Source: Oscillospiraceae bacterium (GTDB lineage Bacteria > Bacillota > Clostridia > Oscillospirales > CAG-272). From it: a stretch of 32,593 nucleotides of DNA. Shown here in pieces: positions 2 through 8,562 of the stretch. Position numbers and translations under genes: made by a program. The stretch spans positions 1-32,593 of the forward strand of contig SVSY01000009.1 in the NCBI GenBank assembly GCA_015064065.1, read 5' to 3'. Numbering within the stretch: position 1 is the first letter of the stretch; each line of letters starts with the position of its first letter. Under the pieces are notes generated by a model. That model saw only the letters and a list, made by a program, of their open reading frames with translations. It had not been told where the DNA came from and searched no databases.

Positions 2-3000
2 GCTCCGTATGCGATAGAGGATCAGCCCACTTATACCTTGATAGCGCATACGGAGCAGACGAAAGCAGAGTATCTGCCCAAGCTTGCAAGCGTCAACGCG
101 AGAACCACCTTCAAGGTCGTACCGCTCGATTTTGAAGGGGTTGAGGGCGAAGGTGTAATAGCTTATCAAAATCCTATCGATATAGAACCTAAGCTTATCG
201 GCTATGAGGCGTTCTACTTTGAAAACGGAGAGCTTCAGGTGACGCTCAAGGCTTCGGAGAATACTCAAAAATATAAGCTTTGGAGAAAAACGCAGGGAAG
301 TGAATACTCGCTTATTTGCGAAACTCCGTATCCGATAATCGTTTGTGAAGGATATTCCGAAAGCGATACCTACGCCGTATCGCTCGTTAGTAACGCGCTT
401 CGTACTGAGAGCGAGCTTGTTGAGCTGACGAAGATACGTAATTATATCGAGGGGGCTGACTCAAACTCTGCAGAGCGACGAATAAATCTGCTTGACGGAT
501 TGAAATTCGAAGCTGCCGCGGGAACGGCTGTTTGGAACTCGGATTACGGCTATGAAAAGCTTACCGACGGACTTTACGGCAGAAATCCGGACGGAAGTCT
601 GAACGTGCACGTCGGAAGATATTCGTCAAAGGGCGTGAAGGATGCCTATATGGACGGAACGGCCGTTTTTGAGAGCTCTTGCTTGCTCTCGGAAATGAGG
701 CTCTATGATTTCAGCGGGGCTACCTCTACAAGACTTGGCAACGAAGTCAAGGTCTATGCCCTGAACCTCGGCGAATGGAAGGAGGTCTACTCTTTGAGCG
801 GAAATGCGGCAGTCATCTCTGCGCGCATTTTGGATGCTGAGAAGCAGCTCTATTATCTGCCGATCGATCTTTCGGGAGTGAAGGCAGACGCCGTACGGGT
901 GTACGCTAAAAACTCGATAGACGCGAACGGTGTTACGTTTTACGAAATAACCTGCAGCGGAACGGCACTTGCAGGAGGCACGGCTTATACGGAAAATATG
1001 CTGCTTGGCAAAGCTCCCGACAGCTTTACTCACGGCACGGCTCTTTTTGCGGGCTACGATCAGAGCAAGCTGACCGACGGAAGCCTCCACTCTAAAAACG
1101 GTCGCTACGCACAGTACGACGGTACAAACAACGGCTTTACCGTTGAATATCTGCTTGACAGCGAGGCGTCGCTCGATACACTTAAGATATATGATTTTGC
1201 CGAGCCGACAGAGCCCGCATCAAGAATAAGCTCGGCAACCGTAGAGCTCTACAGCGACGGAAAATGGGTAAAATATCTTGATGCAAAGCCTCTGCTCGCG
1301 CACGAAAACCGAGCAACAGACGATTACGGAAAATATACTCCCGTCGGTTTGGACGGAGCGAAGGCAGAAAAGATAAGGATAACTCTTAAGAACACCGCAA
1401 GCAAGCTCGGCGTAACCGTTTACGAGATAATGCTCAGCGGATACGTAAGTAAGGTGAGAGCACCCGAACGTGAAAATATTCTGCTTGGAAAGGAATTTGT
1501 TGCTGCTGAGGGTACTAACATATGGAACGAATCCTACGGCTACGACAAATTGACCGACGGCGTATATAACAAGGATGCGGACGGAAATACAAATTATCAT
1601 ATAGGAAGATATTCCTCAGGCTCTGGCGCGAACGAGCGTCTTGAAGGTACTGCAGAGTTTGGCGGAGTATATGAGCTGTCCGAAATGCGTATCTACGACT
1701 ATACGGGGTCGAACGATACGAGAATAGGCAAAGAGGTAAGAGTTGATGCGTACTACGCAGGAGAGTGGCGCACAGTTTACTCAAAGACGGGATACACAAG
1801 CATATTGAATGCAAGAGTGAAGGACAATTCTCTCGGACTCTGGTATCTGCCCGTAGATCTTTCGGGAGTAAAAGCGTCGGCAATAAGAGTATACGTGCTG
1901 ACCGACCCGTCGGCTGCTAACGTGACCTTGTATGAGATCACCTGTTCAGGAAGCAAGCTCGCGGAGCTTTCGGACAAAAATATTATAGAATCCGCGACCC
2001 TTGTAACCGTTACGGCAGGCGAAGCGGAAGATAGAGAGCTTAGCGCGTCGGAAAAGGCTTCGCTCACGGATAAAAATGCGGATACCGTCTTTGATATCGG
2101 CACTGCCGCTCGGTCGTATTGCCTTGAATTCGACCTTGGTCAAAAGTATTCTTTGTATACCTTAAAGATAAAGGACAAGAGAGCTGCGACCGATATCGTA
2201 AGCGGTAGTCCTGCAACGAGAAGCGACGATACCTGCGTTGAGCTCTACGTCGACGGGGAATGGATAAAGGTCGTGAGCGCAGAAGCACTTTCACTGACCG
2301 AAGAATACACGCTGTTTGAACTTTACGGACTCACGGCATCAAAACTTCGCGTGCGCTTCAATAACACGCAGACCTTTGATAACGGCACAAGTCCCGCTGC
2401 AGTGATAAGCGAGATATATTTGTCGATCGCGGGGGCAGCCCCCGACAAGAAGCCGCTGCTCAACGCTTATGCGGGTCTGCCTATTATTGCAGACGGCGGA
2501 GAAAAGTACCTTGAGAATATGAAGAAGTTCAAGGAGTACGTTACCGAATTTGCACTTAAAGAGGAGGATGTCTCGGCTTACGCAAAGGAGATGTGGGATT
2601 ATAACCGCACGCTTTTGAATGGAACTCATACCGCCCACAGCATAAAGCAGTATGAGGAGAAAGCGCCTGACTGCGTTGAGGGAGGTTGGTTCGCCTATGA
2701 AGCTTGTGAGCTCTGCGATTATACGACGTTTGAAGCTGTAGTTCCCGCGGGACACGACGTATCCGGCGAATGGCAGAGTGACGGCGGGTACCATTGGAAA
2801 AAATGCTTGGTATGCGGAGAGCTTGACGAGAGCACAAAGGCAGAGCACGTGTTCGATAATAGCTGTGACGATAGCTGTAACGTTTGCGCACAAAAGAGAA
2901 GCGTAACGCATATGTACTCGGGAGAGTGCGATAGCGAATGCGATATCTGCGGTTTGACAAGAACTGCTACGGGCGCACACAGCGGCGGAGAAGCTACCTG

Positions 3001-3334
3001 TACGAAAAAAGCGGTGTGCAGCGTTTGCGGCGAGGAATACGGGGAGCTTGCAAAGCACTCATACTCAAGTGAGTGGAAGAGCGATGAAACTCACCATTGG
3101 CACGAGTGCTCCTGCGGAGAGACGTCGGAGAGGGAAGAGCACGTTTTCGGCGACTGGACTCAGAAGGACGGACAGCAGAGCAGAAGCTGCCTGTGCGGAT
3201 TTACTCAGACACAGCCGATAGAGAAGAAACCGATTTCTGCGCTCGCAATAACGGCGATCGCGGTAGGAGCAGTTCTTGTGCTTGGAACGGCAGGATTTTG
3301 TCTGTATCGCTTTGCTTTCAAAAAGAAAAAGTAA
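2..3334 (+). CDS. Large surface/secreted protein, 5'-truncated by window edge: discoidin/F5-8C-like modules, Cys/His-rich CxxC tail, C-terminal TM plus KKKK tail
   Basis: The ORF stays open upstream of the listed TTG at 38 (reads ...APYAIEDQPTYTLIAHTEQ), so the true start lies outside the window. Repeated 'N-LLG-K...KLTDG...GRY...' modules; C-terminal CxxC repeats; hydrophobic ISALAITAIAVGAVLVLGTAGFCLYRFAF followed by KKKK. Confidence 0.8.
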   Translation, partial: APYAIEDQPTYTLIAHTEQTKAEYLPKLASVNARTTFKVVPLDFEGVEGEGVIAYQNPIDIEPKLIGYEAFYFENGELQVTLKASENTQKYKLWRKTQGSEYSLICETPYPIIVCEGYSESDTYAVSLVSNALRTESELVELTKIRNYIEGADSNSAERRINLLDGLKFEAAAGTAVWNSDYGYEKLTDGLYGRNPDGSLNVHVGRYSSKGVKDAYMDGTAVFESSCLLSEMRLYDFSGATSTRLGNEVKVYALNLGEWKEVYSLSGNAAVISARILDAEKQLYYLPIDLSGVKADAVRVYAKNSIDANGVTFYEITCSGTALAGGTAYTENMLLGKAPDSFTHGTALFAGYDQSKLTDGSLHSKNGRYAQYDGTNNGFTVEYLLDSEASLDTLKIYDFAEPTEPASRISSATVELYSDGKWVKYLDAKPLLAHENRATDDYGKYTPVGLDGAKAEKIRITLKNTASKLGVTVYEIMLSGYVSKVRAPERENILLGKEFVAAEGTNIWNESYGYDKLTDGVYNKDADGNTNYHIGRYSSGSGANERLEGTAEFGGVYELSEMRIYDYTGSNDTRIGKEVRVDAYYAGEWRTVYSKTGYTSILNARVKDNSLGLWYLPVDLSGVKASAIRVYVLTDPSAANVTLYEITCSGSKLAELSDKNIIESATLVTVTAGEAEDRELSASEKASLTDKNADTVFDIGTAARSYCLEFDLGQKYSLYTLKIKDKRAATDIVSGSPATRSDDTCVELYVDGEWIKVVSAEALSLTEEYTLFELYGLTASKLRVRFNNTQTFDNGTSPAAVISEIYLSIAGAAPDKKPLLNAYAGLPIIADGGEKYLENMKKFKEYVTEFALKEEDVSAYAKEMWDYNRTLLNGTHTAHSIKQYEEKAPDCVEGGWFAYEACELCDYTTFEAVVPAGHDVSGEWQSDGGYHWKKCLVCGELDESTKAEHVFDNSCDDSCNVCAQKRSVTHMYSGECDSECDICGLTRTATGAHSGGEATCTKKAVCSVCGEEYGELAKHSYSSEWKSDETHHWHECSCGETSEREEHVFGDWTQKDGQQSRSCLCGFTQTQPIEKKPISALAITAIAVGAVLVLGTAGFCLYRFAFKKKK

Positions 3335-5280: not shown

Positions 5281-6123
5281 ATGGCAACTGAGTACATGAA
5301 CGATTCTTATAGCCGCTGTATTGCAGAGCTCCGCACCCGCTATCGCGGAAGAGCTGTTTCGGGTAATGCGAAGAACGAAGCCGCGATGCTTGATAAACGA
5401 GAGAGCGAGCAGGAGGCAGCACTCGAATCCTATATTCTTTTCGACTCTCGCTCCAAGATAGCAGACAGCTACAGAAGCGGTGAATACAACGGAAGCAAAT
5501 ATATGACCTCCGATGATTTCGTTCGCTACTTCAAGAGCAGAAGAGCTTTCTATATGCCCAAGGTTCAGGAATCTGAGGAAGCGAAGGCAGAGGCGGTAAA
5601 GAACTCCTCTGTACCTCAGAGAAAAAACGGAGCTTCTCCGGCGAGCCCTGCTGAGTCAGGCTCGAAGGAGGGTCACATAGAAAGACTGTTGTCGGCAGGT
5701 AAGGAGCTTATACTCAAGTGGTTTCCCGTTGAGAGAACAGAGGGAAGGACCGAGGGACGACGTATGCGTTTTCCCGTATCCGCGCTTGCGGGTATCGCGG
5801 TCTTTGCAATATCAATGAGTCTTATCGTAGGTGGCTCGGTAATGGTAGGAGACGCAACCGCAGAGGTTGGCAGACTCGACTCCGAGATAGCTTCGCTTGA
5901 GGCACAGTACGATGATCTCGAGGGAAAGCTTGACCTCAAATATACTGCTGACGGTATTGAAGCCGACGCTAAAGAGCTCGGTATGGTAAAGCGTCAGTAT
6001 GCTGACAACGAATTTGTAACTATTGAAAATGAAGACGAGATAAACATATATGATGATGAAAAAGAGGAGAACGTAGGACTTGCGGCTCTGCTGTCAGCCT
6101 TCGGGCTCGACCTCAAGGATTGA
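5281..6123 (+). CDS. FtsL-like septum protein with long N-terminal cytoplasmic extension
   Basis: Position between rsmH and the PBP gene; single TM (FPVSALAGIAVFAISMSLIVGG) followed by a short coiled-coil-like segment (EVGRLDSEIASLEAQYDDLEGKLDLKYT). Assignment is by synteny and topology. Confidence 0.7.
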   Translation: MATEYMNDSYSRCIAELRTRYRGRAVSGNAKNEAAMLDKRESEQEAALESYILFDSRSKIADSYRSGEYNGSKYMTSDDFVRYFKSRRAFYMPKVQESEEAKAEAVKNSSVPQRKNGASPASPAESGSKEGHIERLLSAGKELILKWFPVERTEGRTEGRRMRFPVSALAGIAVFAISMSLIVGGSVMVGDATAEVGRLDSEIASLEAQYDDLEGKLDLKYTADGIEADAKELGMVKRQYADNEFVTIENEDEINIYDDEKEENVGLAALLSAFGLDLKD

Positions 6124-6213
6124 CCGTCATAAACACCGATCCTTCGTCATATCATATAAAGGATAAAATACACCGCTCTTGCGGTGACGATAAACAGGCG
6201 AAGGGAGAGCTCA

Positions 6214-8562
6214 ATGGGGCGCACGGTAGGATCGAAAGCACTAAAACGTTCGACATTTTTAGGCTTTATGGTTTTTTGCGTCTTTGGAGTGCTTCTTTTG
6301 CGAATATTGATGCTGCAGACCTGCAGCTTTGAAAAGTATCAGACTAAGGTCATCAATCAGATGACTACCGAGTCGGCAGTTCCCGCAAACCGCGGAAAAA
6401 TATTTGACCGAAACGGAAACGTCCTTGCTACAAACGTTACGACCTACAGACTCTTCATATCTCCCTCGAGTATATCGAGTGCACAGGAGGAGAGCGGAGA
6501 GAATTATTCGGATCTTGTTGCAAAGGGACTTTCTGTGCTCGTCGAGGACGTAGAATACGATAACGTCTATAAGCAGGCTACCGAGTACACGCAATATCTC
6601 GACAGAACTATAGCGCGCAAGGTGAGCGAGGCTAAGGCAGACGAGATACGCGAGTTTATAGCCGAGTATTCGCTTGAACAGATGGTGTTTCTCGAAGCGC
6701 AGAGTACACGCTATTATCCCGGCGGAGATATGGCGGCACACGTGCTTGGGTTTACGAGCAGTGACGGCGATGGACTGTATGGGCTTGAGCTTCAGTACGA
6801 CAAATATCTGAGCGGAGTTGACGGATACTACATAAAGGCACGTGACTCATACGGAAACGTTATGCCCTTTGAGTATGCGAGTTACATCAACGCTATCGAC
6901 GGATATGATCTTACGACCACTATAGACAGCACGGTACAGAGCTTTCTTGAAGAGGAGCTTGCGGCTACCGTGGAAAAACACAACGTAACTAATCGCGCTT
7001 GCGGAATAGTTATGGACGTGAATACCGGAGCTATCTTAGCGATGGCTACCTCATCTCCCTTTGATCTTAACGACCCGTGGCAGCTTGACGAAAATTCTGC
7101 AACGCGTCTTGAAAATCTTAAAAATGAGGGTTACGACGAGCAGAGCGACGAATATAACGATCTCTCCAGAGAGCTTTTGACTACTATGTGGTCAAATAAA
7201 GCGGTCACCGAGAGCTATATTCCGGGTTCTACGTTTAAAATAATAACCTCGTCGATGGCACTTGAGGAAAAGGTGGTCAGTATGACCGAATCGGTCAACT
7301 GCCCCGGACATAAGACTCTTTTCGGACACACGATACACTGTCACGAAACAAAAGGACACGGATCGCTGTCCTTTGCGCAAGGACTTCAGCAATCCTGCAA
7401 CGTGTGGTTTATGACGCTTGGAGAACGCATCGGCGTAGAGCGTTATCAGGATTACGTAGAAATTTTTGGTTATAAAGAAAAGACGGGAATAGATCTTCCC
7501 GGTGAAGGAAACAGTATTTTTGCCGCAGACATGACGGAGCTTGACCTTGCTATCTATGCCTTTGGACAGAACTTTACTGTAACTCCTATGCAACAGATAT
7601 GTGCGGTAGCTTCAGTCGCTAACGGCGGAGAGCTTCTTACTCCGTATCTGGTTGAAAAGATAAGTGATAACGCAGGTAACGTAATATACGCTCACGAAAC
7701 TGAACAGAAGCGTGAGACAATAAGCAAAGCTACCTGCGAGACGATATCTAAAATACTTGAAGAGGGTGTTTCGGGCGATGGCGGAGCGAAGACCGCTTAC
7801 GTCGCGGGATATCGCGTTGCAGCAAAGACGGGTACTTCGGAAAAGAAGGAACGCGAATGCCCCAAATGCGGATCTACCGGAATGCCGCAGACTATAGACG
7901 ATACGGTAATGTACGTTTGTAACATATGTAAATATACCGCCGAGGCGGACGATTTTCCCGTAAGTGAGAAGTATATATGCTCGACTGTTGCATATGCACC
8001 CGCCGACGATCCTGAGATAGCGGTGCTTATAATGGTCGACGAGCCTACGCGCGGTTCGCTCTACGGAAGCACGGTCGCCGCTCCGTACGTAAGAAACGTG
8101 CTCAAGAACGCTATGCCGTATCTTGGAGTAGAAGCGCGTTATACGCCCGAGGAACTCGAAAATATGAGAGTACGCGTGGCAAGCTACAAGAGCCGAAGCG
8201 TTGAAGCGGCTATCGAATCTATAAGCGAAGCGGGACTTCGCTATAAGGTTATAGGTGACGGTGAATACGTTACCTCACAGCTTCCTGCCGCAGGCGAATA
8301 CGTCGAGGAAGTATCGGGAACGATAGTCTTGTACGCGGGAGCAAAAATTGAAGATAACGTGACGGTGCCCGATCTTAGCGGAATGGTCGCCGCTACGGCA
8401 AATCAGGCTTTGATAAATCTCAATTTGAACGTAAGAATAGAAGGTGCCGACAGTTATCTGTCGGGCACGGGATATAAGGTGGTGGCACAGTCGGTCGCAC
8501 CCGGCGAGAAGGTCGCGGCGGGAACTGTGATAACGCTCACCTTTGCTAAGAGCAGCTCGTAG
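6214..8562 (+). CDS. Class B penicillin-binding protein, SpoVD/PbpB type, with two C-terminal PASTA-like domains and an inserted CxxC-CxxC knuckle
   Basis: PGSTFK (S at 7228), SCN, KTGTSEKK motifs; N-terminal NRGKIFDRNGNVLATN; PASTA-like C-terminus VTVPDLSGMVAATANQALINLNL... ATG at 6214 with GAAGGGAGAG RBS preferred over GTG at 6184. Confidence 0.95.
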   Translation: MGRTVGSKALKRSTFLGFMVFCVFGVLLLRILMLQTCSFEKYQTKVINQMTTESAVPANRGKIFDRNGNVLATNVTTYRLFISPSSISSAQEESGENYSDLVAKGLSVLVEDVEYDNVYKQATEYTQYLDRTIARKVSEAKADEIREFIAEYSLEQMVFLEAQSTRYYPGGDMAAHVLGFTSSDGDGLYGLELQYDKYLSGVDGYYIKARDSYGNVMPFEYASYINAIDGYDLTTTIDSTVQSFLEEELAATVEKHNVTNRACGIVMDVNTGAILAMATSSPFDLNDPWQLDENSATRLENLKNEGYDEQSDEYNDLSRELLTTMWSNKAVTESYIPGSTFKIITSSMALEEKVVSMTESVNCPGHKTLFGHTIHCHETKGHGSLSFAQGLQQSCNVWFMTLGERIGVERYQDYVEIFGYKEKTGIDLPGEGNSIFAADMTELDLAIYAFGQNFTVTPMQQICAVASVANGGELLTPYLVEKISDNAGNVIYAHETEQKRETISKATCETISKILEEGVSGDGGAKTAYVAGYRVAAKTGTSEKKERECPKCGSTGMPQTIDDTVMYVCNICKYTAEADDFPVSEKYICSTVAYAPADDPEIAVLIMVDEPTRGSLYGSTVAAPYVRNVLKNAMPYLGVEARYTPEELENMRVRVASYKSRSVEAAIESISEAGLRYKVIGDGEYVTSQLPAAGEYVEEVSGTIVLYAGAKIEDNVTVPDLSGMVAATANQALINLNLNVRIEGADSYLSGTGYKVVAQSVAPGEKVAAGTVITLTFAKSSS

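Follow-up and report, generated by a model that had tools for sequence, protein, structure and literature searches.

A SpoVD-type PBP in a dcw cluster

The window, the whole 32,593-nucleotide stretch of Oscillospiraceae DNA analysed here, contains a dcw cluster in the order mraZ-rsmH-ftsL-like-PBP-murE-murF-mraY-ftsW/spoVE-murG-divIB-like-ftsZ. The PBP gene, an open frame at 6184–8562 (all features described below lie on the + strand), codes for a 792-aa class B PBP of the SpoVD/FtsI type (Pfam PF00905, PF03717, PF03793; TIGR02214), which consists of a TM anchor, a PBP_dimer domain, a transpeptidase domain and two PASTA domains. The hydrophobic N-terminal anchor, read from the sequence at residues ~25–44 (6256–6315), would leave all subsequent residues outside the cytoplasm, as expected from the topology of class B PBPs. 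Invariant alignment columns located the catalytic SxxK motif, STFK with Ser349, at 7228–7239 and the SxN motif, S404-C405-N406, at 7393–7401. The translation and the AlphaFold model placed the KTG motif, K548-T549-G550, on strand β3 (7825–7833), and the C-terminal PASTA pair detected by Pfam occupies approximately 8161–8550. A PBP_dimer domain joined to a transpeptidase domain with SxxK, SxN and KTG, followed by C-terminal PASTA, is the arrangement of a SpoVD-type class B PBP. TIGR02214 (spoVD_pbp) was the top model at 533.7 bits, below its 688-bit equivalog cut-off, and we therefore refer to the protein as SpoVD-type rather than as a certified SpoVD.

The dcw-encoded SpoVD and SpoVE of C. difficile contribute to septation during sporulation and to synthesis of the cortex (PMC10693644), and the genome carrying the window encodes SpoIVA, which together make a sporulation role of the window PBP likely by analogy. 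The protein may also serve vegetative division, because just three transpeptidase-domain proteins were found in this genome, which is 82% complete. Two other genes of the window have uncommon features: a 1098-aa ORF 5′ of the dcw cluster (38–3334) lacks any Pfam match, and the 280-aa product of the FtsL-like gene (5281–6123) resembles DivIC/FtsL only at residues ~173–239, its N-terminal part being unusually long.

A four-cysteine insertion follows the KTG motif

Translation from position 7825 gives KTGTSEKKERECPKCGSTGMPQTIDDTVMYVCNICKYTAEADDFPVSEKYICSTVAYA, with Cys codons at 7858, 7867, 7918 and 7927, in agreement with the residues and codons that the initial annotation of this DNA had listed after KTG. 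The insert (7849–7971; ERECPKCG...DDFPVSEK, residues ~556–596 as bounded by translation, model and alignments) contains Cys559, Cys562, Cys579 and Cys582 in the pattern KTG-x8-CPKC-x16-CNIC, the first knuckle, CPKC, being encoded at 7858–7869 and the second, CNIC, at 7918–7929. Its placement between β3 and β4, also proposed in that annotation, was established in several ways. The Pfam Transpeptidase match is broken at the insert, where model positions 2–250 stop at 7863 and positions 254–299 restart at 7963. Alignment to C. difficile SpoVD (7rcz), the solved structure nearest to the window PBP by sequence (E=5.5e-104) and by fold, extends through KTG..K and restarts from KYICS, with ~40 intervening residues in the window PBP and ~8 in 7rcz. 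The AlphaFold model of the PBP, built with 50 orthologues (mean pLDDT 86), has the KTG strand at 507–514, a hairpin of the insert at 526–532/535–540 and the next core strand at 558–566 (add 39 for full-protein numbering), with pLDDT of ~75–88 in the insert. All three agree that homology to other PBPs resumes at the start of β4, YICSTVAYA (7972–7998). Measured against insert-less sisters the insertion comprises 34 residues, where about 33 had been estimated; the expected extracytoplasmic location agrees with the topology, and the nearest solved PBPs lack the insert, as the short loop of 7rcz illustrates.

The cysteine pattern is not a product of chance, since CxxC-x(8,25)-CxxC within a 41-aa stretch arose in 2 of 20,000 whole-protein shuffles and was absent throughout all 78 insert-less orthologues. 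An assembly error or a one-off oddity, the concern raised in the initial annotation that the insert might be unique to this sequence, is ruled out by its recurrence in ~20 independently assembled species.

The insert adds a putative second metal site

Active-site Zn in PBPs of this kind was first reported in 2022 (Sacco 2022, PMC9334274). The Zn2+-binding motif C/D-x12-14-C/D-x5-9-H-x12-C, whose final Cys is the x of SxN, is found in C. difficile PBP3/SpoVD, with the related D-x14-D-x5-H-x12-C in A. baumannii PBP2 (PMC9334274, PMC9974482). By alignment, the window PBP carries this motif as CPGHKTLFGHTIHCHETKGHGSLSFAQGLQQSC, that is, C373-x12-C386-x5-H392-x12-C405 (7300–7398), C405 being the x of SxN; the strict spacing is kept in 94 of the 104 family rows and shifted in several others. 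Class B PBPs with a metal site were thus known before this ribbon, and so was a class B PBP that responds to metal or redox state, the property that the initial annotation considered for the ribbon (PMC9334274, PMC9974482). Because the known motif is kept in the window PBP, binding of metal by a PBP is not new, and the novelty is a second, ribbon site in known Zn-binding SpoVD-type PBPs, not a new class of PBP. Judging by the sequence, the window PBP probably binds metal on either side of its active site, at the known SxN site and in the ribbon that follows KTG. Outside both sites, further near-invariant cysteines occur 30 residues before KTG and in β4 (YICS), in PBPs with or without the ribbon.

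The insert is predicted to fold as a zinc ribbon

Like a zinc ribbon, the insert has two CxxC knuckles with a hairpin between them. Modelled alone with 17 sequences, it folded into a hairpin plus a third strand, the ribbon topology, with mean pLDDT 82.6; the AlphaFold prediction of the ribbon depends on 17–50 sequences. Nearly all of the best PDB matches of the isolated ribbon in Foldseek were RPB9/RPC11 zinc ribbons (probability mostly 0.96–1.00, rmsd ~1.5–2.9 Å), with E values of only ~0.1–0.3 for this 46-residue query. A profile search against PDB also returned RPB9 (E=1.2e-4). The Pfam profile Zn_ribbon_RPB9 scored 21.9 bits, under its 25.2-bit cut-off, and the insert thus escapes the curated profile. 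Taken together, the model fold, Foldseek and the profile search bear out a zinc-ribbon-like insert. The original description as a “rubredoxin/zinc-ribbon knuckle” holds in its second half, the ribbon being of the RPB9/TFIIS type, and fails in its first: rubredoxin should have CxxCGY first and CPxCG second, the reverse of the order in the insert, and its fold differs. The second knuckle of the insert, taken alone, does resemble rubredoxin. The modelled fold suggests coordination of a single structural Zn by the four Cys; a site of this sequence may bind Fe instead. The topology of the model would also bring the ribbon near the active site and Ser349.

The ribbon is confined to two genera and its cysteines are invariant

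PBP orthologues were detected in 364 of the 395 genomes searched in the family (E≤1e-40). The ribbon is present in 8 of 28 species of the genus of the window (g1) and in 13 of 30 species of another genus in its family (g47). Of the 28 readable loops of g1, 15 are short and one has 31 residues, while 7 hold a single ribbon, 1 a double ribbon, 3 a PASTA pair and 1 a module of ~91 aa; among the 30 readable loops of g47, 12 hold single ribbons, 1 a double ribbon, and the remainder are short. The double ribbon, which places eight Cys in the loop, occurs in one species per genus (L013/L082 and L083/L236). About 60 further loops, taken from g47 and additional genera of this family, were all short and contained no module. 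No ribbon was found outside g1 in samples of the order (394 genomes), the class (341) and the phylum (349, searched with a DNA pattern), samples that missed the ribbon-bearing species of g47 and which rare other holders can therefore escape. On this sampling the distribution is clade-restricted, as anticipated. Holders with a name are MAGs of uncultured gut Clostridia, recorded as Clostridia or Oscillospiraceae bacterium; many come from sheep, deer, cattle or buffalo and were sampled in the colon, caecum or rectum. Within the genome of the window, the KTG loops of the other PBPs are short and carry no insert, and a ribbon-profile search for a donor gave only partial matches (E>0.008), mainly to rubredoxin/rubrerythrin knuckles. 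A ribbon within a PBP was not found in the open-licence literature searched.

All four Cys are invariant in the alignment of 17 non-redundant single ribbons, as is, exactly or nearly so, the junction KTGTSEKKE(R)EC; the segment between the knuckles ranges from 16 to 24 residues, and the hairpin differs in length and sequence. Across 19 sequences, the Cys codons alternate between TGC and TGT at each of the four positions with no Cys lost. Nei-Gojobori ω, estimated with dS often near saturation, was mostly ~0.06–0.16 for the ribbon where estimable and ~0.03–0.14 for the core. The ribbon cysteines are under purifying selection. The near-identical junction in g1 and g47 argues for common descent of the ribbon in both genera. 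Ribbon identity was 57–60% within genera and 54% between them, compared to 73–77% and 61% for the core; this flatter profile hints at exchange of ribbons between the genera and would also fit a different constraint. On a tree of 70 rows built with the insert excluded, the ribbon label changed 12 times, with at least 8 changes forced by well-supported branches and 11–12 in bootstrap trees, counts in which gain, loss and exchange are not separated.

The β3–β4 loop accepts different modules

Among the 28 PBPs of g1, the KTG loop is the sole internal site with insertions of ≥10 aa relative to a short-loop reference, occurring in 13 of 28 rows and reaching 125 residues; the other cases of this size are N-terminal only. 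The loop is filled by a single or double ribbon, a PASTA pair or the ~91-aa module, or is left without any. The PASTA pair in the loop (Pfam E=5e-26), to which the C-terminal pair of the window PBP is homologous, was found in three species. In two of them (L032 and L033) the protein ends shortly after the transpeptidase domain with no C-terminal pair, and the third (L031) has PASTA pairs both in the loop and at the C-terminus. The loop pairs are closest to each other (45–55%) and the three species are monophyletic (100/95), and L031 therefore looks like an intermediate of a duplication into the loop followed by loss of the C-terminal pair, a direction suggested by the sequence comparison. In another species (L026), the ~91-residue insert of the loop matched no Pfam family and contained no CxxC.

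The initial annotation was right about the insert itself and overlooked that the same loop is a hot spot for the double ribbon, the PASTA pair and the ~91-aa module. Of our findings, this hot spot and the re-siting of PASTA domains to it are more surprising than the ribbon. The presence of other modules in the loop points to an exchangeable accessory module rather than specifically to a metal or redox sensor. A bolder reading is that the loop serves specifically as a port through which regulatory or ligand-binding modules that gate the active site are exchanged, with PASTA re-sited from the C-terminus and ribbons gained, lost or exchanged many times between sisters; we put it forward tentatively, as somewhat less than probable.

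Discussion

The explanation that we favour, and consider probable by a little, is that the insert is an extracytoplasmic four-Cys zinc ribbon acting as a structural module and that the loop is a port for such modules. With one structural Zn bound by the four Cys, the short, mobile β3–β4 loop would be stiffened or capped and form a rigid knob where the active site opens. This knob would hold the loop in one conformation and enlarge the surface at the groove entrance; the added surface might contact nascent peptidoglycan or a partner protein, and the knob might tune access of substrate and β-lactams. Single and double ribbons, the PASTA pair and the ~91-aa module would then be alternative fillings of one port. 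In PBP2 of N. gonorrhoeae the β3–β4 loop adopts an extended low-affinity and an inward high-affinity state (PMC8503634), and by analogy the ribbon would restrict movement of the loop and enlarge the surface of the groove. The patchy loss of the ribbon indicates that it is dispensable, and its effect may thus be small.

Since unrelated modules take its position in other species, the ribbon is more likely to serve structure, access or docking than to be a dedicated sensor of metal or redox state. Zinc ribbons often act as protein-binding modules, and the loop filling could bind a polar divisome or cortex partner such as FtsL, DivIB or SpoVE, the Zn being merely structural; the dcw set of the window includes ftsL, a SEDS gene and divIB, and C. 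difficile SpoVD interacts with FtsL, FtsQ and SpoVE (PMC10693644). Yet the differing fillings in sister species would require partners that change with them, and docking as the main role seems unlikely to us. A sensor, in which loss of Zn from the ribbon thiolates or disulfide formation between them, in oxygen or when Zn is scarce, inactivates the transpeptidase and supplements the known Zn/thiol switch of the active site, would account for the invariance of all four Cys and would suit hosts that are gut Clostridia and presumably strict anaerobes. The SpoVD-type thiol/Zn site, for which redox sensing has been proposed, is already present in the enzyme, and StoA acts on SpoVD of B. subtilis (PMC9334274). 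Close sisters that have no ribbon, or Cys-poor PASTA or other modules in its place, fit a structural or docking role better, however, which renders the sensor improbable. We give a similarly low probability to an inhibitor filter, in which a groove narrowed by the filling makes the enzyme less readily acylated by natural β-lactams, with fluctuating selection behind the patchiness. It draws on the control of drug affinity by the β3–β4 loop of N. gonorrhoeae PBP2 (PMC8503634), on the narrow active site to which the insensitivity of C. difficile PBP2 to cephalosporins has been related (PMC9334274) and on a loop label that is patchy and repeatedly changed on the tree, but SpoVD-type enzymes may not be a lethal target. 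Finally, a tolerant loop in which inserted segments persist as near-neutral decoration could explain the patchy distribution, the many loop lengths and the frequent absence of a module, and is made unlikely by the low ω and the four Cys invariant despite saturated synonymous sites, and by the survival of one ribbon over long times in both genera.

PBPs are classic targets of antibiotics, and their catalytic core is generally regarded as highly conserved. A loop that accepts domains right behind KTG would supply natural experiments on substrate access, β-lactam acylation and partner binding, for which sister species with and without each module allow direct tests. The ribbon would also bring an extracytoplasmic zinc ribbon, an unusual location for this fold, to an enzyme class whose active-site Zn is a recent discovery.

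The closest known systems share parts of this arrangement. The Zn2+-binding serine PBPs (C. difficile PBP2 and PBP3/SpoVD, A. baumannii PBP2) have a four-ligand site at a β-hairpin and the SxN Cys, conserved in the window PBP; the ribbon is a separate four-Cys site in the β3–β4 loop that is not described in the open-licence papers found on these enzymes. SpoVD of C. difficile (7rcz) and B. subtilis share with the window PBP the pedestal and transpeptidase domains, the dcw location and the active-site Zn motif, whereas 7rcz has no ribbon in its loop. The loop of N. gonorrhoeae PBP2, the conformation of which sets drug affinity, occupies the same structural position as the insert, but it is short and contains neither an inserted domain nor a metal. 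RPB9, RPC11 and TFIIS zinc ribbons match the insert in the CPxC...CxxC order, the hairpin plus third strand, profile and fold; they are intracellular, in contrast to the ribbon of the window PBP, which is predicted to be an extracytoplasmic loop insert in an enzyme. The PASTA domains of PBP2x and SpoVD belong to the module family found in the KTG loop of the three sister species, and while they are normally C-terminal, in two of these relatives they reside in the loop only.
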